The notes beneath the pieces were generated by a model, which made no database searches, was not told where the DNA came from, and saw nothing but the letters and a program-made list of their open reading frames with translations. 64,000 bases of DNA from Protonemura montana (Eukaryota > Arthropoda > Insecta > Plecoptera > Nemouridae), in the NCBI GenBank assembly GCA_947568835.1, contig OX387608.1, positions 12,686,001-12,750,000 of the forward strand, given 5' to 3'. Positions 11,700 through 62,146 of this stretch are shown here, in pieces. Made by a program: the position numbers and the translations under genes. How positions within the stretch are numbered: the first letter of the stretch is position 1; every line of letters begins with the position of its first letter.

Positions 11700-12050
11700 A
11701 ACGAGCCCTCTGGTGCTGGTCTAATGGCGTCGGTGAACACTTGGGTGATGATGTTCCTAATTAGGACTAAAAGGGAAAGAGACATTACCTACACCGGCTT
11801 AACGTTTCTTCCGAAGGACTATATAAGGCGAACAACAGGATTCCTCCACAAATCCATGCTGTCGAGAGGTTGATAAGCAATTGGCGAATGAAGTTTCTGT
11901 ACTAACTTTCATCTCTCTAACCTCTCTCCCGAACAGAACTGGTTATATGTATGATGGTCACCCATCCAATACCTGACTCAACGCAGTGTTGCTTAACTTC
12001 GGTGATCTCACGAGAACCGGTGTTGCAAACGTGTCAAATTGTTTGGTGCG
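11700..12050 (-). repeat. S5 SINE, antisense, internally deleted
   Basis: The tail is shortened, and the part of the centre normally reading GAGCACCAAGGGGACC is missing. The 5S-like head is well kept (GGTCACCCATCCAATACC, CTTAACTTCGGTGATCTC). A separate 3'-end fragment, GTGTTTAACGACGCATTG, lies at 12096-12122. Confidence 0.88.
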
Positions 12051-14589: not shown

Positions 14590-15012
14590 GACCGAACGGT
14601 TTGGCGTGTTGAAAACACCGGTTCTCATTAGATCACCGAAGTTAAGCAATACTGCGCTGAGTCAGGAATTGGATGGGTAACCATCATACAGATTACCAGT
14701 TCTGTTCGGGAGAAAGTTTAGAGGGATGAAAGTTAGTACAGCAAGTTTATTGGCCTTGCTTATCAACCTCTCGACAGCATGGATTCGTGGAGAAATCATG
14801 CTGTTCGCGTTGTACCGTCCTTCGGAAGGGACGTTAAGCCGGTGGTCCCCTTGGTGCTCTTCGACAGGAGTAGGCTACGTGCCGGCACCGGGTTTCCCCT
14901 CCTTCTTTCTGGGCTAGGTTAGGTTCATCATCATCGACTCATTCACCGACGCCATTGGGCCAGTGCCACAGAACCAGAAGTCAAAACAGTGCGTCGTTAA
15001 ACACCAATAATC
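14590..15012 (+). repeat. S5 SINE, full length
   Basis: A complete sense copy: start CCGAACGGTTTGG, 5S-like head (AGATCACCGAAGTTAAGC, GGATGGGTAACC), CAGTTCTGTTCGGGAG region, conserved centre (GGGACGTTAAGCCGGTGG), TAGGTTAGGTTC, TCATC run and AGTGCGTCGTTAAACACC end. A 63-codon frame is open at 14726-14917. Confidence 0.95.
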
Positions 15013-18889: not shown

Positions 18890-19182
18890 AGTTACTCGAG
18901 ATCGACAGGTTGTGACGTGATATAGCGTCACTGGAATCAGACTGTGAGTATTCATAGCCTCTTGGTTCTACTCCTTGGAGAACTGTCATTCTCATCAAAT
19001 ACACTAAAATCGTCGCAAAAAGCCAGTGTCCAAGTAGCTCAATGGGTTAGAGCAACACCCGCGATAGGTGGAGATCGGGGTTCAAGTCCCCGTTTGAGCA
19101 TCAATTTTTGAGACGGTAGTAGTGTAATAAAAATAAAATACCCCGCGCATTGCAAGCGTTTGCAATTTAAATAAGATTTTAA
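18890..19182 (+). repeat. T1 SINE, full sense copy
   Basis: The best T1 copy: leader GACGTGATATAGCGTCAC, CTTGGTTCTACTCCTTGG, ATACACTAAAATCGTC, a tRNA-like head with A box TAGCTCAATGGGTTAGAGC and B box GGTTCAAGTCCCC, then TTTTTGAGACGGTAGTAG and the GCATTGCAAGCGTTTGC tail. The tRNA-like head points to a pol III promoter. Confidence 0.92.
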
Positions 19183-20037: not shown

Positions 20038-20480
20038 GTGGGGTTTTAACGACGCACTGTTTTGACAACAAGCCGTGTGGCACTGGTCTAATGGCGTTAG
20101 TGAATCAGTGGATGATAATGAGTATGATGATGAACCTAACCGAGTCTAGAAGAGAGGAGGGGAAACCTGGTACCGGCAAGAAGCCAGTGTCGAAAACCAA
20201 GTCGAAGAGCACCAAGGGGACCACCGGCTTAACGTCCCCTCCGAAGGACGGTACAACGCGAGCAACAGGATTCCACCACAAATGCATGCTGTCGAGAGGT
20301 TGATAAACAAGGCGAATGAAGTTGCTGTACTAACTTTCATCACTTTAACCTCTCTCTCAAACATAACTGGTCATGTGTATGACGGTCATCCATCCAATAC
20401 CTGACTCAGCGCAGTGTTGCTTAACTTCGACGATCTCACGAGAACCGGTGTTTCCAACACACCAAACCGTTCGGTTACCG
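20038..20480 (-). repeat. S5 SINE, full length, antisense
   Basis: Complete from the 3' end (TTTTAACGACGCACTG) through CCTAACCGAGTC, the conserved centre with a short insertion near CCAAGTCGAAGAGC, and the 5S-like head (CATCCATCCAATACC, AACTTCGACGATCTCACG) to ACACCAAACCGTTCGG. Confidence 0.93.
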
Positions 20481-26365: not shown

Positions 26366-27337
26366 ATTCCCACCAAATGTCAAATTTACTGATCAAATGG
26401 TGCTTGCTTTTAAAATGGTGCTAACCAAGTGCGTTAGCACTTACTTATTTGACATTTATTTGACAGCTGCGCTGACCAAACAAGTTTTCTTCTTAATAAA
26501 GCAGATTTTCAATATTTTCACTAAGCATTTATATTGCTACTGATAAAAAATCACTCAAAGCACTAGATTATCCATTTTAAAATAAGTTTTTGATTGCTTT
26601 AACACCAGATTTCAAACAAAAATGTGAAAATTCTTCTCTTATTAGACGACTTACTCCAACTATAAAGCGCCCCTAATTTGTCCCAACCACTGCAACTATT
26701 ACCCTAACAGATTGCTATCTTTATCAGTATACATCGTCATAATTGCACATTTCAATTGTATTTTATCAAAAACAACTATCATTTACCACAATTACTCGAT
26801 GACCAGTATACGTCACACATTTTATGTATTTTTTATTGGTTCCAATTAAAACCGCAGATGCACTTACCATGTGATGAAACAATTAGCTATAAAAAAAATT
26901 AGATAATAAATTCTCTTGCAAAAGTGCACCCTTATTTTGGATGAAAAACAACAAAACATGATGCTAGTAGGGTTGTTGTTAATTGGAGTTGAACGAGAGA
27001 TCCTATTTCAGCCATGGGGGGCGTTCATTCTGACGCTGCATGGCTTTACGGTGCACAGTTCCATACATTGGCTGACCCACATTGTGAATAGTTTTGAAAC
27101 CTTGTTAGCGTCATGTTCAGTAACGCGTGGTTAACGGTGGTTAAGTAAGCAAAGTAAATCATTGGTTGGTGTTAACCAGTTAGTTAGGTTGACGGATTGA
27201 AAGTTTAATTAAATAGCTAGTCCGCTATTGTTCCAATAAGTGTAGGGTATGAAACTGGATGAATAATTCTTGGGCAATTAATTTTGCTAAGTTTTTTGTT
27301 ACAAGTTAAGTAGCAGTTAACGATCTAATCACTAATA
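26366..27337. other. No gene recognised
   Basis: AT-rich intergenic DNA. Small open frames lack domains. Confidence 0.5.
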
Positions 27338-27775
27338 CCGAACGGTTTGGTGTGTTGGAAACGCCGGTTGTCGTTAGATCACCGAAGTTAAGCAATGCTG
27401 CGCTGAGTCAGGTATTGAATGGGTGACCATCATACACATGACCAGTTCTGTTCGGGAGAGAGGTTGGAGGGATGAAAGTTAGTACAGCAACTTCATTCGC
27501 CTTGCTTATCAATTTCTCTACGGCATGGATTTGTGGAGGAATCCTGCTGTTCGCGTTGTACCGTCCTTCGGAAGGGACGTTAAGCCGGTGGTCCCATAGT
27601 TGCTCTTCGACAGGAGTAGGCTACGTGGAGGCACCAAGTTTTCTCTCCTCCCTTCTAGGCTAGGTTAGGTTCATCATCATCCTCAATATCATCCACTCAT
27701 TCACCGACGCCATTAGACTAGTATCACGTGGCCAGATGTCAAAACAGTGCGTCGTTAAACACCACAAATTAATAA
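27338..27775 (+). repeat. S5 SINE, full length
   Basis: A complete sense copy and a good reference for the family: CCGAACGGTTTGGTGTGTTG, AGATCACCGAAGTTAAGC, GAATGGGTGACCATC, CAGTTCTGTTCGGGAGAG, CGGAAGGGACGTTAAGCC, TAGGCTAGGTTAGGTTC, AGTGCGTCGTTAAACACC. Open frame 27472-27663 (63 codons). Confidence 0.96.
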
Positions 27776-48945: not shown

Positions 48946-50536
48946 ATGTCCGGAAATGACCTCAAATATTCTCTTAGGAAAACTGAGTTTCCGTATTGTG
49001 CTAGAGAGGCATTATCAAGAATTGGTAGGTCCTTAAGTCTCAGTGGTCATCTTTAACCTAGGATCGCATATTTACCTGTGTAATTGAACAAGCTTACCTA
49101 AGCCTTATGAAGAAAGTTAATACATACCTATTTCAGAACAATTATGTACAAGCGGTGGCACTGGGCGAGCGCCTACTACTGTCCAAATGGAGCTATCTAT
49201 GGAACTTATGGCAGAGTTTGTATTCTGTGAAATCGACCGCAGAGGACTTCCAAAGCGGGTAATAAATTATGAAAAACGTCACTCAGTTAACCATTTAAAA
49301 TTTAATGATTCGAGCAAGCTGGGTAGCTGAACGCACTTAAGTATTTCTTTTCATTTCTTTTCAGAAAATGTCAGCGCTACAAGAACTAAGACTACTTGAA
49401 GTTCTCTGTGATTACTTTGGTCATTCTGCTGGTAATAATGAAGCTGCAAGAAACACTGTTTTCATGTCCCTTTTTCCCCCAGCCCTTACCGAGCGGTCAC
49501 GACTCCTTTCAAAACTCGTATCGATGTCAATCTCCACTAGAAATATACCAGTTCTTACGGCAACTGGAATTTGGATGCAGCAACTTAGTTGCACCTCTCA
49601 GTTTAGCTTGGACCTAGCAGCACAGTTAGTGCAAGACTTTTTTGTGCTTGTTCCAAAAGCGCTTAGCTGTTGGAATGATCTCCCAAGAATGGCACCTCAG
49701 TTTGCTGCAAACTTTCTCACGACAGCTGCAGAAATGTATGGTGTTGACAAAAGATGTAGGTTTCAACCGCCACCAGATTTGTTGCTTAAAATTATCACTC
49801 GGTGGGTTTTTGACAATCCAACGCTATGCCTTGCTGCTTTGTTGGTGGATTTGAAACTAGCCCTACCAATGGGTGGTATTCTCATGGCAGCCGTCACTCC
49901 GTTTGCTGGTCTTCTGAGGTAGGTTTTGTAGAGCTTGTCTCATGCTCAGTACAAAACAAAATACTTAAAAATTTTTTATCAGAGCGTTATTTTCTAGGTG
50001 GTGTGTACTGGCGCCATTACACTTTGCATCATTTGATGCATGCAAAACTACAAATAAAGAAGTTTCACCACCAAAAGACAGAAAGCAGCTCGAGGCATTG
50101 TACGCACTGCTTCAACAAGCATTGCTTGAAAGTTTGCTGGAGTGCAATTCGCATCATCACGTCGTACCATCAAGAGACAACGTATTATCTTCTCAACATT
50201 TAACAGCAATAGTTGAGCCCATTTTAAGGTATAAGAAGACTTTTGACGAGATGCCACAAGAAAATGAAGAGAGGTGTAGAAGAGACGAAGAAGCAATTGA
50301 CGAGGCGTTGAATAGGTTTGGACAAGCGATACAGGTGGCGTTAGCCGTCGATTGTATATACGGAAATGTCGGTGAGTTTATTTTGAAAGATATCTGAAAA
50401 ATTATTGATCAGCCATTAATAGTTTATGCTTTAATCTGGATGCTATGATTTTTTTCTAGGGGAACTGTTCAAGCACATAGATACCTTACCTGAGAATCAG
50501 CTACTCTGGATCGTTCTAAACAAGCACCGGAGTTAA
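48946..50536 (+). CDS. INTS15: Integrator complex subunit 15 (C7orf26 family)
   Basis: INTS15 is a subunit of Integrator, the nuclear complex that cleaves snRNA and other nascent RNAs at RNA polymerase II; the human protein was long called C7orf26. Exons: 48946-49024, 49137-49258, 49365-49918, 49998-50371 and 50460-50536, with phases 1, 0, 2, 1, giving 401 residues. Family marks: LPKRKMSALQELRLLEVLCD against human PKRLNSLQELQLLEIMC; LLSKLVSMSISTRNIPVL; and GLLRWCVLAPLHFASF against human GLIRWCVKAPL, whose Arg is rebuilt across the exon 3/4 junction. The late helix LNRFGQAIQVALAV also matches. The proline/histidine-rich tail of the human protein is missing; translation stops after WIVLNKHRS. 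AATAAA candidates lie at about 50868 and 50891. The gene converges with RRP7A. The residue-level match to my memory of the family is strong. Confidence 0.93.
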
Positions 50537-55743: not shown

Positions 55744-57403
55744 ATGACCAAGCCAGTGCCATTGTGTGGTTTGACAAACCTTCAACTACGGTTCTTATGT
55801 CCAACCGACTTGGAAGAGGTACGTTTTTGAGTGGATGCTTTGGAATTGAAAAATCTAAATGTATCTGCGATAATTTTATGTAACTCCACCCCGCGTTTAA
55901 TGCATTACTGTTGAACTTTGCAGGTACGATACCTCTGCCAGGATTGGTTCCCGATCGACTACCCTTACTCATGGTATAAAGATATTACAACAAACCCTCG
56001 ATTTTATTCGCTCGCTGCAATTTACGAAGGGGTCATAATTGGCCTAATAGTAGCCGAGATAAAACCTTACGTGAAATTAAATCGAGAAGACCAAGACATA
56101 CTTTCGCATGTGTTTAATAAAAAGACTGAGGTTGGCTATATTTTGAGTCTCGGCGTGAGCAAAGATCATCGACGAAATGGCATAGCGTCACTCCTCCTCG
56201 ACAATCTCATTTCTCACCTGACAACTGTAGAGCACAATGACTGTAAAGCCGTGTTTCTACATGTGCTCTCCACAAACTCACCTGCAATTAAATTCTATGA
56301 ATATCAGAAATTCAGGTATGAAATACTCTGTTAAACTTTCATCTTTGCCTGCACTTATATTATGTACCTTGCTTGTAATATCTAAATTGTGTGCTTTTTG
56401 TATTTCAGGTTACATTCCTTCCTTCCATACTACTATTCAATCAAAGGAAAATGTAAAGATGGCTTTATTTATGTGCTGTACATCAATGGAGGACATCCGC
56501 CTTGGGGAATTTAATATCCTTTTGTAACAATTATAAGGTGTACTTTTTGATTTCTTGTAAACATGTAAATTTGACTAGGTCAAGAAATTTACATGAATAT
56601 TATGGCTGCCTTCATTAAACAGCCGAATGCAAAGAAGTTCATTCAAGCAAAAATCTACAGTATATTTATATTATAACTTCTGGCTATTTTACACGTTTTT
56701 GTAAGCTGCCCATCCTGACAAAAGCCTTTGAACTGACTGCCTTCCAATATTGTCTGCGTTCTCAATTTACAACAATTTCAGCAAATTTTTTGTGTGAAAT
56801 CTGATTGAAATTGCAAACGTTTGCAATGCGTGCCGTATTTTATTATAAGGAACACCAATAATTTTAAAATTCTCAGCCAATTGTTTGTGAAAAAAATGGT
56901 CGCTAAGGTTCCTTAAAGCTTCTATTTCCGAACAATCACATTGTAAACAAGCCATAGAAATATGATGGTTTTTAGACTCATGTCTACTTGATTTATCCTT
57001 AGCACTAGTTTTAAGAAAAACTATTTGAACTTGGTTTTGAATGCTAAGTAAAGGGCTACTAAATTTAGTAAATTTAGGAAATTTAGTAGCCCTTTACTTA
57101 GCATTCAAAACCCAGTTCAAATAGTTTTTCTTAAGCCATAAAAATGTTTCTTTGCTGCCAATGCCCCAAATGCTGCCGCCTATGCTACAATGATCTGTGC
57201 CAATGCTTTCAGCCATGACCGTTCCTTAACTAGTACTCACTGATTATGTAAAGCACCTGTGCGGCGTCGTCTACCGCTCTGACCCGTGCGGTCTGCCCCT
57301 GTGGCTCTGGGGCAAGATGCAGCGCGCCGTTCACTGGGCGTGGCCTGGCGTTCGCAGGGTCGTCGTGCAAAACAGCGCGGCCATCCTCTCGTTTCACAGC
57401 TAA
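55744..57403 (+). CDS. NAA60: N-alpha-acetyltransferase 60
   Basis: A GNAT-fold acetyltransferase that in other animals acetylates N-termini of transmembrane proteins at the Golgi. Exons: 55744-55818, 55924-56315, 56409-56513 and 57241-57403, giving 244 residues (human 242). The start MTKPVPLCGLTNLQLRFLC aligns with human MTEVVPSSALSEVSLRLLC. Family marks: CQDWFPIDYPYSWYKDIT, VGYILSLGVSKDHRRNGIAS (acetyl-CoA binding loop, R-x-x-G-x-x), FLPYYYSIKGKCKDGFIYVL and INGGHPPW. The third intron is not GT-AG: it begins ATATCCTTTT (56514), has TTCCTTAAC (57222-57230) and ends AC (57240), all typical of U12 AT-AC introns. Splicing it turns PPWGI-stop into PPWGIYDYVKHLCG, matching human PPWTILDYIQHLG. 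Reading through instead gives TAA at 56512-56514 and loses the C-terminal part, which is linked to membrane association in human NAA60. The gene is followed by a T2 repeat. Confidence 0.94.
56788..56870 (-). repeat. T1 SINE tail, antisense, in NAA60 intron
   Basis: GTGAAATCTGATTGAAATTG, then TTTGCAATGCGTGCCGTA and GGAACACCAATAATTTTAAA: the reverse complement of the T1 tail and junction. Confidence 0.78.
56962..57134 (-). repeat. R1 repeat with 56-bp foldback
   Basis: An antisense R1 piece (TTTTTAGACTCATGTCTAC, CTTGATTTATCCTTAGCAC) leads into an inverted repeat. The left arm 57011-57066 and right arm 57079-57134 are complementary at 55 of 56 positions, with a 12-nt loop. The right arm is therefore a sense R1 segment (CTTAGCATTCAAAACCCAG). 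Confidence 0.9.
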
Positions 57404-57574
57404 CACCTGGCGTTAGCCTAAATGCCATTGAATCAGGGTAGGCTAGGCTAGACCCGGCAAAACGTGCTATGAAGCAAAGCGCTTTTTTTGTACAGTCGTC
57501 AAGGTCACCAACACTATGTTGGTAACATTTGGATGTTTAGTAGAAGAGGAAAACTGGACAAAAGTGTGTACTGA

Positions 57575-57640
57575 ATCTGGATAAGAACCCGGGATTGCCG
57601 GTCAGATGCTCTACCAACTGAGCTATCCAGGCACACAAGA
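57575..57640 (-). repeat. T2 SINE head (tRNA-like), antisense
   Basis: The reverse complement reads GCCTGGATAGCTCAGTTGGT, AGAGCATCTGACCGGCAATC and CCGGGTTCTTATCC. The A box is good and the B box damaged; no complete cloverleaf can be formed, so it is not a tRNA gene. It starts about 170 bp after the NAA60 stop. Confidence 0.68.
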
Positions 57641-60637
57641 CTTCAGACTTGCTGGGGCAGATAACGGTAGATTTTGATTCAAGGGCAATCTGTGTTAATA
57701 ATTTGCAAGAAACAAAATTGGGCGACTCCTCCTTTGGTTGCCAATCCGACTGACGAATATTGGTCCAGACCAGAGTTAACGTTCCTGCATAGAATTTGGA
57801 ATTTTGGTTAGGTAGAAGCCGGTAATTTATAGGAATCTGCGGGCTTGTTGCCACGGAGTGAATGGACAAAACCTAAACAGCAAATTCCTAGCGCCGAATC
57901 GGAATGAAATGTCCAACCGCCAGTAGGTAGGGAAATGAGCTTTTGCAGGCACTCAAGCTGCCAGTTCGCTTCGTTATTTCGGCTCAACTATGGGCGGTAG
58001 CTAGCGTGCATCTGTGGATAGGCCATCTGCTTCTACCTATCCAATATTCCAAATTCCATAGTTTGTGTTCTCATGTCAGTGATATCGATATTGTACCCCT
58101 GTCTAACGCTGGAGTCGGCAGAGCAGTGACCAGACGGACAATAGACGTCACGTTGACAAAGTAAGTGATTGACAGCCATTGGAACAATAATCAAAACTTG
58201 CTCTCTTCCAGTGCAACTTCAGCATCTCGTTATCGTTATAAGAGTTCAGAATGAAATAATTGAAACAAATCGTAGCCAGTACTTTCATTAGTGAAAACAG
58301 AGTGACAAATCACCAACAATCATAGCACCTGTTCTTTGACAGGTAAACTAAATGCATCCACTGACATGCTTCGTGCGTTTGGTTCTGGGTTTCCTCTGCA
58401 CCTGCAGTGCGATTCTAGGACTTCATTGAGCTCTCGATCTAAAGCTACGCCGATCGACAAGTGTACGATCGAGAGCTCACCGTGCGATTCTGTCGTAAGA
58501 GCAGCATCCTGGCCTATTTACTTGCTGTGACATGGTTAGTCTAGCCTACTCTGCATTAACAGGAATGAGAGTCACGAACATGATGACAAACATGATGTGT
58601 GTAAAGATATCGGTTAGCTGGGATCGGAATTGACAAATCTAATCATAACGGTCTTCCTACAATTAACCCAAGCAGATTACGCGAAGTGTAAAACGTAAGG
58701 CATAACGTTAGCAAGCTCCCACAATAGGTGTAACTCAGATCGAAAAGATAATGGGCCAAATCTTAGTGTCTGCTCATATCCTTCTAAAAAAACAGACAAA
58801 ACAAAGTGACACACAACTTGTATGTGATGGCAACTGGGGTTGTTGAACTTTGATATCAACACGATGTAAGAGCATGAAAGAAACTTAAATAAATTTGTTG
58901 CGTTTGCGGCACCAATCCTTTGTTGTTGCTTGCAATTGTTGTGTGTAACGTCATTTTAAACTGAAAATTGGATTTCTTTCATGTTGTGTCGTATTAGGGT
59001 TTGCACAAATCACCTGAGTAGCCAATTTTGTGAATGAAATTTCAAAGAGAAACTCGTCTGACTGATCTCTTTGCACTCGTCTGAATTCTAACTCATGCCA
59101 ATAATTGTTTACAAATATTGTTAAAATTTATTCTGTTTAGGGAAGAAAATTCTCGAATGCCACAAACTATCCTTGTTGAATATTGCAAGCGTGCTTCATT
59201 CATCATCGACAGATTGCCAGCTATTGTTAGATATATTTGATATTTAAATGACATGTTAGACCCAAGACTTTATCGCGATATGTCTGAACGTAGTTTAGTA
59301 GGTACGGAAACGATTATAAATATTACACATGAATAATGGGCCTTAAAACTATGAAGATTCTAATTAATTAAGAAAATGTACACCAGTCTTTTAAGATAAG
59401 AGGTACCCAAGTGTACTGGATTACAAAGTTAACCGACATAGCGATTACTTGACTTGTACTTGGGTTGATTTGGAGAAAATCTCTTGTTGGCAAGGTCTTT
59501 TTTTACCGTTTTAATCTAGAACAGAAAAAAAGAGGGTTAGAATCCCAATGACGTTGAGTACCTTTCTTATGAACGATTAATAACTGTAAGGAGCCGGCGA
59601 AACTTGGGGACGGGTTTACCACTTCAAGGTAATCTGTTTTCATTTTCTATGCCTTACAATGGGCAGTGAAATTTTCAAGATTTTTTATCTTTTTTTCTGA
59701 ATGGTGTTTCTTGGTTAGGTTGGGGACATGCTGCAAAACGATACTGCTCATCGTAATTCCAGTTGCTTACTGTGAAGCCCACGGGAAAGAAACTGAAAAA
59801 GAATGATTTTGTTATCGCCAATCTTACAATCATAATCGGTTTGCAGTGATCGATCTGGCCTTGACTTTAGAAATCCAATTCTCATCAAATTTGAAAATTT
59901 ATACAAATCAAACATTGTACAATTGAGACAACCTATTCGAACGATGCTACCCTTGAGATTTTCCGTTTTTTCTACTATAATCTTTTATTTGTTGCTTTGT
60001 TAGAACCCGGTTACTTCAAGAGAGTTTATGATTGCCAAGAGATGGCACAAAATATGTTGTTGTGGTGTAATTGTAATAATCACGGACAACTGTGCTGAGC
60101 GTGACATGAATAGTGTTTATCAGTATTTTATTGCGCAATTTGTTACGAGTCTGTTTTTATGCGTCGATTAGTTAAAGCTGCTCAAATTTTATTGTTAGTG
60201 GTCGATTACAAGTAGGTGATCGATCGTTTAAAAATTCGTATGCCAATTTAATCGCACACAAAAGGTATGAAAAGCAAGAGCAAATACAAACACTGAAAGA
60301 GCTACAAACTCAACTGGAATTTTTTGTTTTTCGATTATTATGAAATGTTAACTAAATTTGTTTGTTACAAAATAAATACATTAGCTATTATTGGACCTTT
60401 TTACCTAACTTAATCCTTTTTGCCATGTTTTCAACCACTTACAACAAACTGCTGAACTCAGAAAAGAGTCCACTCAAAAGATTCAAATCTCAAGTATCCG
60501 TTTTATGGATACAGTACAGGAAAGAGAGGTAGGTACTGACCACATAGCATGCTATGTGCTTGCCCAAATGACAAATCGAATCGAAATAGGTTAGAGAACT
60601 TGCCAAAAAAAAAATGCAAATCTAAATAACACAGTAA
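57641..60637. other. No gene recognised
   Basis: About 3 kb between NAA60 and MRPL37. Includes the 3' flank of NAA60 (no AATAAA close to the stop was seen; a candidate lies near 58890). Short frames have no domains. Confidence 0.5.
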
Positions 60638-60666: not shown

Positions 60667-61896
60667 TTACATTTCCAAACCGTTTGCGTAGAACGCCATC
60701 AATGCTTTAAAAACTTGTGGGTTGTATTCTGTCAGCTGTGGCCTACCGCTCTCATACAAGCAACTTTCAAACAGGGGTATCCGCGGTGAAGTCCAACACA
60801 AATTCTTGAGTCCATCTCGACCATCCAAGTTTAAAGTGTTTAGCTGAAACACCATAAAGTGAAAAAGTCTACCATCGGTCTGAACACTCTGCAAAGTGAT
60901 TGGTTTCGGGAGATCCACAACTTTCTCTCCGAACGTCTGTCGAGCTTGAGCCGCTGCTACCGCAAAGCTCTTCATTAATGTTCTGCCGACAATTTGATCT
61001 TCAGTCACCTCTGTCTCGTAGATGTTCTTCACCTCTGAGATATTGAAATGAAAAATCGCTGTGTGAGCGGTTAGGCGGTTTTTATTTACTAACGGAGCTA
61101 TGTTCTCTATCTTGTAGAAATGTTCTTTTTCCAAAGTGATTGTGTGCTTGATAGGGGTGAGGTCTGGGAGCTCAATTTTGTTTGTGTCCGCTGCTGAAGT
61201 AGGCAGTGGTTTTGGAGCCATCAATAATTGCTCTGCGGTAAGTTCTAGTTGAATGAGATCTCCTTCTTTTTCAAATGGTACGGAGACAAGGCTGTCACGT
61301 ATGAGGTACCGTTGATCAGGACGCCGGAGAGACGTTTCGCACAACTGCATAAGTTGAGAAGTTAACAATCTATTTCGGCGATGGTCAGGAATACCATAAA
61401 CCCTCGGAAAGTTCCATGCTGGTCTTGTGGGGTCATGAAGGCGCGGTAATTTTTCTTGAACTGCATCGAAAACGTGTGATGATAAAATGCACCTCTGAAC
61501 AAGATTGTGGAGGTTTGGATTAGATGCCTGTTCCTCATCAATTAAGCTCTCGAGCAGCCCGTGACCTTCCAATTCCACTGTTTTTGTGATAACTTTAGCC
61601 TGATTGAGTCCTTCTAAGAGAGCATTGTGATCTCTGTATTTATAGCAGGGCCTTTCATTGTACAAGGGATGAGTCTCATCATATGGTTGCGGTTGAGGAC
61701 GGAACCCGACTATTTCTACTCGTTGGAAAACTTTTTTCTCCTTTAAAACTTCTTGTGGAGTAAACACTGGTATTCCCTTTGCCTGAAGCTCAGAACTGGC
61801 TCCAGTTTCTCTCGGTGTTCGTTGGCCCTGTATTTTCCAATGCTTCTTGAACATGCGATCGAGATGTTGGCTGGAGAGCACTTTTGAGAGCCGCAT
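60667..61896 (-). CDS. MRPL37: Mitochondrial large ribosomal subunit protein mL37
   Basis: A structural protein of the mitochondrial 39S ribosomal subunit. It is encoded by one uninterrupted 409-codon exon; the human protein is 423 residues. The first 25 residues (MRLSKVLSSQHLDRMFKKHW...) are basic and could be a mitochondrial targeting signal. Family marks: HPLYNERPCYKYRDHNALLE (human [20 protein letters not shown]), KVITKTVELEGHG, NFPRVYGIPDHRRNRLLTSQ, and near the end ITLQSVQTDGRLFHFMVFQL followed by NTLNLDGRDGLKNLCW (human [20 protein letters not shown] and LDCNEGVKNLAW). The lack of introns contrasts with its neighbours; a retrocopy origin is possible, but the conserved frame and own promoter position argue that it is the functional gene. 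It is divergent to NUDCD1 with 250 bp between start codons. Confidence 0.94.
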   Translation of the reverse strand: MRLSKVLSSQHLDRMFKKHWKIQGQRTPRETGASSELQAKGIPVFTPQEVLKEKKVFQRVEIVGFRPQPQPYDETHPLYNERPCYKYRDHNALLEGLNQAKVITKTVELEGHGLLESLIDEEQASNPNLHNLVQRCILSSHVFDAVQEKLPRLHDPTRPAWNFPRVYGIPDHRRNRLLTSQLMQLCETSLRRPDQRYLIRDSLVSVPFEKEGDLIQLELTAEQLLMAPKPLPTSAADTNKIELPDLTPIKHTITLEKEHFYKIENIAPLVNKNRLTAHTAIFHFNISEVKNIYETEVTEDQIVGRTLMKSFAVAAAQARQTFGEKVVDLPKPITLQSVQTDGRLFHFMVFQLNTLNLDGRDGLKNLCWTSPRIPLFESCLYESGRPQLTEYNPQVFKALMAFYANGLEM

Positions 61897-62146
61897 CCTG
61901 ATCTATGTTGATTGGTACGAAATTAGTACACGAACAATAAGTGCACGAAATTATCCAAATTTGCTCACAGATGGCTTGCTTGCAAGAAATTGAAGAAATA
62001 GTATCAGGTACAAAGATATTATAACTAGCAAGAACTTTCAAGAGCAACCTAACCTTCCCCTTTCGCCTATTCGCACAATGTGGGCGTGTGGGAAAGTGCT
62101 TTGTGTCAGTAGTCATTAAAGTCAAGAAATTGGTAGTGACAACAAA
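61897..62146. promoter_or_regulatory. Bidirectional promoter region, MRPL37 / NUDCD1
   Basis: 250 bp separate the two outward-facing start codons, so both genes must be controlled from this stretch or from its flanks. No TATA box was identified; a GC-richer part (CGCACAATGTGGGCGTGTGG) lies near 62071-62090. Confidence 0.55.

Follow-up and report, generated by a model that had tools for sequence, protein, structure and literature searches.

A conserved AT-AC intron of the U12 class predicted ahead of the C-terminal exon of NAA60 in Protonemura montana

How does the NAA60 gene of Protonemura montana obtain its C-terminal tail, when the reading frame of its third coding exon runs straight into a stop codon? 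In the window, the whole stretch of 64,000 nucleotides of DNA that was analysed here, the codons of this exon end in ...HPPWGI and its last bases, GGA ATT TA, reach to 56513. Unspliced read-through yields a stop after 190 residues, at a TAA that consists of the two final exon bases, TA, and the A at 56514, the first base of the proposed intron. Further downstream, a segment beginning with T GAT TAT GTA AAG CAC CTG at 57241 leads to a stop codon that ends at 57403. We consider it very probable that the last coding intron of NAA60, which separates these two segments (Table 1), is an old and conserved, predicted AT-AC intron of the U12 class, the removal of which by the minor spliceosome would add the C-terminal tail.

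Table 1. Predicted features of the NAA60 locus (window positions) and of a second candidate AT-AC intron (positions in locus L025).
Feature	Position	Strand	Basis or remark
NAA60 coding exon 1	55744..55818	+	start codon 55744 placed by homology; genome protein search puts query 1-29 here
NAA60 coding exon 2, bulk of GNAT domain	55924..56315	+	gene model; human NAA60 alignment; PF00583
NAA60 coding exon 3, 3' end ...YVLYINGGHPPWGI-TA	56409..56513	+	matches human up to exon end
Predicted U12-type AT-AC intron, 727 nt	56514..57240	+	signals; homology across junction
5' splice site ATATCCTTTT	56514..56523	+	predicted pairing with the host's U11 and U6atac
Palindrome in NAA60 intron, 124 bp	57011..57134		two 62-nt arms, 95% complementary, no spacer
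Branch site TTCCTTAAC	57222..57230	+	predicted pairing with the host's U12, one A unpaired
AC acceptor	57239..57240	+	11 nt past second branch-site A (57229)
NAA60 last coding exon, C-terminal tail	57241..57403	+	best-scoring segment against human tail
Syntaxin-6-like intron in locus L025	donor 1682, branch site 1841, AC end 1859	reverse complement	predicted

The scripted gene model joins four coding exons into a 244-residue NAA60, with introns 1 and 2 of 105 nt and 93 nt, both GT-AG. The joined protein matches the GNAT domain PF00583 (E 8.3e-16) and has its best match among N-acetyltransferases in NAA60: NAA60 entries fill the top five places among 24 PDB sequences (E 4.7e-80 to 7.6e-69), followed by the next at E 3.9e-19. 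Searches of the genome, which covered 258.5 Mb in 34 contigs, recovered the four exons in order with this protein and, apart from them, one weak match at another place of the contig (38% identity, E 1.9e-4), and the gene was therefore counted as single copy. Judged by these comparisons, the gene is NAA60, the NatF N-terminal acetyltransferase, present once in the genome. Two scans of genome-contig and viral-contig collections gave no confirmed relatives of NAA60.

Evidence for a junction between 56513 and 57241 comes from the protein that it restores. An earlier note on this DNA had proposed this joined product, and connecting the two positions indeed gives 244 residues that align with human NAA60 (5hgz, E 4.7e-80) across the junction, query 8-216 lying on chain 9-217 with 54% identity over 209 aligned columns; the final 28 residues, past human residue 217, lie outside the human alignment. 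When all plus-strand segments of at least 12 residues between 56514 and 64000 were compared with the human tail, the letters of which were taken from the 5hgz alignment, the frame of exon 4 scored 48 and the next of the 194 segments 27. The exon-4 peptide was also shuffled 5000 times, and all of the shuffles stayed below its tail score of 47 (highest 39); among the 189 AC acceptors tried from 56560 to 60000, solely the one at 57240 regains the human tail match (47; next 22). The last coding exon also differs in composition from the intron (63% vs 33% GC). Stretches of high helical moment occur in the tail encoded in the window and in the human tail alike, and no conclusion is drawn from them.

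The signals expected of a minor intron are present at the ends of this interval. U12-type introns carry the consensus ATATCCTTT at the 5' splice site and TTCCTTRAY at the branch site; the former is matched exactly at 56514, and TTCCTTAAC fits the latter. Its two candidate branch-point adenosines, 57228 and 57229, lie 12 and 11 nt from the end of the acceptor at 57240, and the 11 nt from the second A fall inside the optimum of 11-13 nt described for U12-type introns (PMC3584512). Use of the nearer AC at 57235-57236 would, as read from the sequence, bring an early stop. U12-type introns are further described as lacking a distinct polypyrimidine tract ahead of the acceptor (PMC3584512), and by eye no such tract precedes the acceptor in ...CGTTCCTTAACTAGTACTCAC. 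Donor, branch site and AC acceptor of the AT-AC intron were thus all found as the earlier note had stated them; its placing of the branch site "727 bp later" is right in that the site exists and wrong in the distance, since 727 nt is the length of the intron and TTCCTTAAC starts 708 nt after the donor. An AT-AC intron of the U2 type was also considered and rejected: introns of this sodium-channel kind have a G at donor position +5 (PMC2831892), whereas a C stands there in NAA60.

How much weight the motifs can bear was assessed against chance. The two strands of the window, 64 kb long, together hold one copy of ATATCCTTT and two of TTCCTTAAC, and the looser combination of ATATCCTT, TTCCTTRAY and an AC within 18 nt yields, with either strand considered, a sole pair separated by under 3 kb. 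Of 300 single 64 kb strands simulated with a first-order Markov chain derived from the window, however, 10% contained one or more pairs of this kind, and genome-wide the donor 10-mer ATATCCTTTT is found on both strands at 856 places vs 924 for a reversed-pattern control, which is no excess. For these two reasons, the motif pair by itself was not accepted as evidence. It is the position of the donor at the end of the conserved frame, together with the recovery of frame and homology across the junction, that exceeds chance; at one fixed position, the donor 9-mer is expected with a frequency of about 8e-6. Donor and branch site at a spacing of 60-90 nt, a range too short for both the 727-nt NAA60 intron and the syntaxin intron treated below, were found nowhere in the genome, a result without bearing on the number of introns as long as these two.

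The host also appears to possess the machinery for such an intron, judged by matches to the snRNAs of the minor spliceosome. Rfam models gave one match each for U12 (113.9 bits), U6atac (99.6 bits) and U11 (92.7 bits) and two for U4atac (74.9 and 65.2 bits), all of them above the Rfam cut-offs, and the genes concerned are presumably active. Each model was without a match in 14 control genomes, although the named controls are prokaryotes and their zeros tell little beyond specificity. The U12 of the host contains GUAAGGAA, its U11 starts with UAAAAGGG and its U6atac contains AAAGGA. In duplex folds, the donor forms 11 continuous pairs, including wobbles, with U11 (32 of 12798 sampled 12-mers of the window pair at least equally well) and nine pairs with U6atac (257 of 12798 equal or better), and the branch site forms a helix with U12 in which one A stays unpaired (185 of 12797 sampled 17-mers equal or better). 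The pairing energies of the host snRNAs with the NAA60 signals are good, not unique.

Recognition of both intron ends by U11 and U12, followed by the exchange for U6atac, is the established pathway of the minor spliceosome. In NAA60, ATATCCTTTT would accordingly be bound by U11 and TTCCTTAAC by U12, U6atac would then displace U11 from the donor, and 56513 would be connected to 57241 by the minor spliceosome. Splicing, which we infer to proceed as predicted, would supply the C-terminal exon, the putative counterpart of the Golgi-anchoring tail of human NAA60. In the human protein, residues 182-216 matter for Golgi localisation, residues 190-202 form an amphipathic helix, and the fragment 1-199 is more active in vitro than 1-242 (PMC4993997). 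The link to membrane association that the earlier note drew for this region agrees with these localisation data, and the tail probably binds membrane in Protonemura montana as well.

The intron additionally harbours a palindrome that folds into a long hairpin, and the intron RNA as a whole has a markedly lower folding energy than its 20 shuffles (z -8.1). When the genome was searched with 57005-57140, 80 matches came back, which correspond to about 40 places because a palindrome matches both strands; this is a lower bound, since scoring covered 40 of the 1305 first-look candidates. On one side of the palindrome, several retrieved copies have further letters in common, and the repeat element may be longer than the palindrome itself. 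The palindrome belongs to a dispersed repeat family, for which MITE-like serves as a label only.

Three other readings of the locus have to be weighed. The major spliceosome could remove a GT-AG intron instead, for example from a donor GT at 56453 to an acceptor AG ending at 57233, which would give an in-frame protein of 226 residues that includes the tail. This joint is the best of 746 combinations and even scores marginally higher against the human tail than the AT-AC joint (48 vs 47), since the same exon is entered in the same frame. Its price is the loss of 20 residues, CKDGFIYVLYINGGHPPWGI, among them YVLYINGGHPPW, which is identical in human, and as every GT donor ahead of the TAA lies at or before 56478, a GT-AG joint would in any case cost conserved residues. 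It would also leave the U12 signals without explanation, and we regard it as extremely improbable. Equally improbable is the reading that there is no intron, that NAA60 ends after 190 residues and that the downstream frame is a relic. The unspliced frame does stop at 56514; the downstream frame, however, is open and GC-rich, its match to the human tail stands far above those of the 193 other plus-strand segments and of the 5000 shuffles, and the U12 signals are intact at both ends of the intron.

A third possibility accepts a minor-spliced intron and makes its retention a switch, in which the retained message would end at the boundary TAA and encode a soluble, active enzyme of 190 residues; a soluble short form by retention had been suggested in the earlier note. 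The exact coincidence of the TAA with the exon/intron boundary and an ATTAAA at 56614 inside the intron speak for it, although a lone ATTAAA in an A+T-rich intron may be meaningless. A retained last coding intron would leave no known downstream exon junction to trigger decay, assuming an intron-less 3' UTR; retained-intron messages, on the other hand, often stay nuclear. A soluble retained form is conceivable because the human tail (182-216) serves Golgi localisation and the fragment 1-199 is active (PMC4993997). The perturbation studies consulted point elsewhere: human NAA60 shows increased alternative splicing after RNPC3 knockdown, reported as altered splicing and not as retention (PMC12332006), and Naa60 protein is reduced in miso-null fly ovaries (PMC12084885). 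Since these reports do not show the NAA60 intron retained, we consider such a switch very unlikely, if somewhat less so than the two readings above. Equally doubtful is its extension to a control of location, in which slow minor splicing would produce a decay-escaping retained message and hence a soluble instead of a Golgi-bound enzyme, with the hairpin repeat tuning the ratio of the two. Removal of a U12-type AT-AC intron between 56513 and 57241 stays the reading that we prefer.

Several further loci were noted around NAA60 and elsewhere in the assembly. A minus-strand gene at 54930-51247, which resembles RRP7A, stands head to head with NAA60 (55744-57403, plus strand), the coding parts of the two being less than 1 kb apart. 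Matches to INTS15 lie at 49341-50394 (+) and a match to mitochondrial ribosomal protein S30 at 60670-61902 (-). The window also contains a tRNA-Ser at 19027-19102 and four scattered 5S rRNA matches above the Rfam cut-off, of 42 to 69 bits, at 14591-14711 (+), 27337-27457 (+), 20355-20475 (-) and 11927-12047 (-). Outside the window, COX1 matches of equal score (455.5 bits) are found at C4:5760925-5762262, on a contig of more than 5 Mb, and at C34:3504-4841, with further partial ones on C4; the duplicate may reflect either a recent transfer of mitochondrial DNA to the nucleus or an assembly joint. The copy on C34 is of mitochondrial type: at presumed conserved residues of COX1, it has TGA as Trp, AAA at Lys, AGA at Ser and ATA at Met, which fits the invertebrate mitochondrial code and argues against an ascidian or echinoderm host.

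The predicted intron has well-documented relatives. The fly gene CG18177 carries an AT-AC intron of the U12 type as intron 4 of 4, and the intron of its human orthologue, FLJ14154, is of the U12 type with the same subtype (Lin et al. 2010, PMC2831892, Table 2); the sixteen U12 introns common to fly and human retain their subtype (PMC2831892). CG18177 has been used as dNaa60 (PMC3131286), NAT15 is given as its human orthologue (PMC2952598), and NAA60 is counted among the human minor-intron genes (PMC12332006). The consulted parts of two further papers that concern NAA60, PMC9769039 and PMC10937998, name no minor intron. By gene, subtype and place as last intron, the intron in Protonemura montana is a probable orthologue of that of fly and human NAA60, its position being judged by the term "last intron" and the authors' statement. 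The AT-AC intron is therefore not the surprise that the earlier note took it for, as it had already been published for fly and human NAA60 (PMC2831892, PMC2952598, PMC12332006). It is a further, well-conserved and rather ordinary example of a known minor intron, and it leaves existing knowledge of NAA60 as a documented AT-AC minor-intron gene in fly and human unchanged. Its value is that a deeply conserved minor intron was correctly predicted from sequence alone in one more animal, and it has a practical side for annotation, as a gene finder restricted to GT-AG introns would lose the membrane-binding tail of NAA60.

One control gene was tried in the same genome, a syntaxin-6-like gene with two exon matches to PF09177, the name of which we assume from the Pfam match and the human sequence. 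Its predicted AT-AC intron starts with ATATCCTTTT, continues to TTCCTTAAC and ends with an AC 11 nt past the second branch-site A; the junction joins DLDDTI in frame to SIVEKNPTKFKID. STX6 is another AT-AC gene common to fly and human (Lin et al. 2010, PMC2831892, Table 2), and the published syntaxin 6 intron thus has a candidate counterpart here, with donor, branch site and 11-nt spacing identical to those of the NAA60 intron. The two introns differ in that they lie in different genes and in that the syntaxin-6-like one is short, at about 178 nt vs 727 nt. Compared with the intron of fly CG18177 and human FLJ14154, the one in Protonemura montana is the same in gene, AT-AC subtype and place, here as the last coding intron, and differs in its 727 nt and in the palindromic repeat that it carries.
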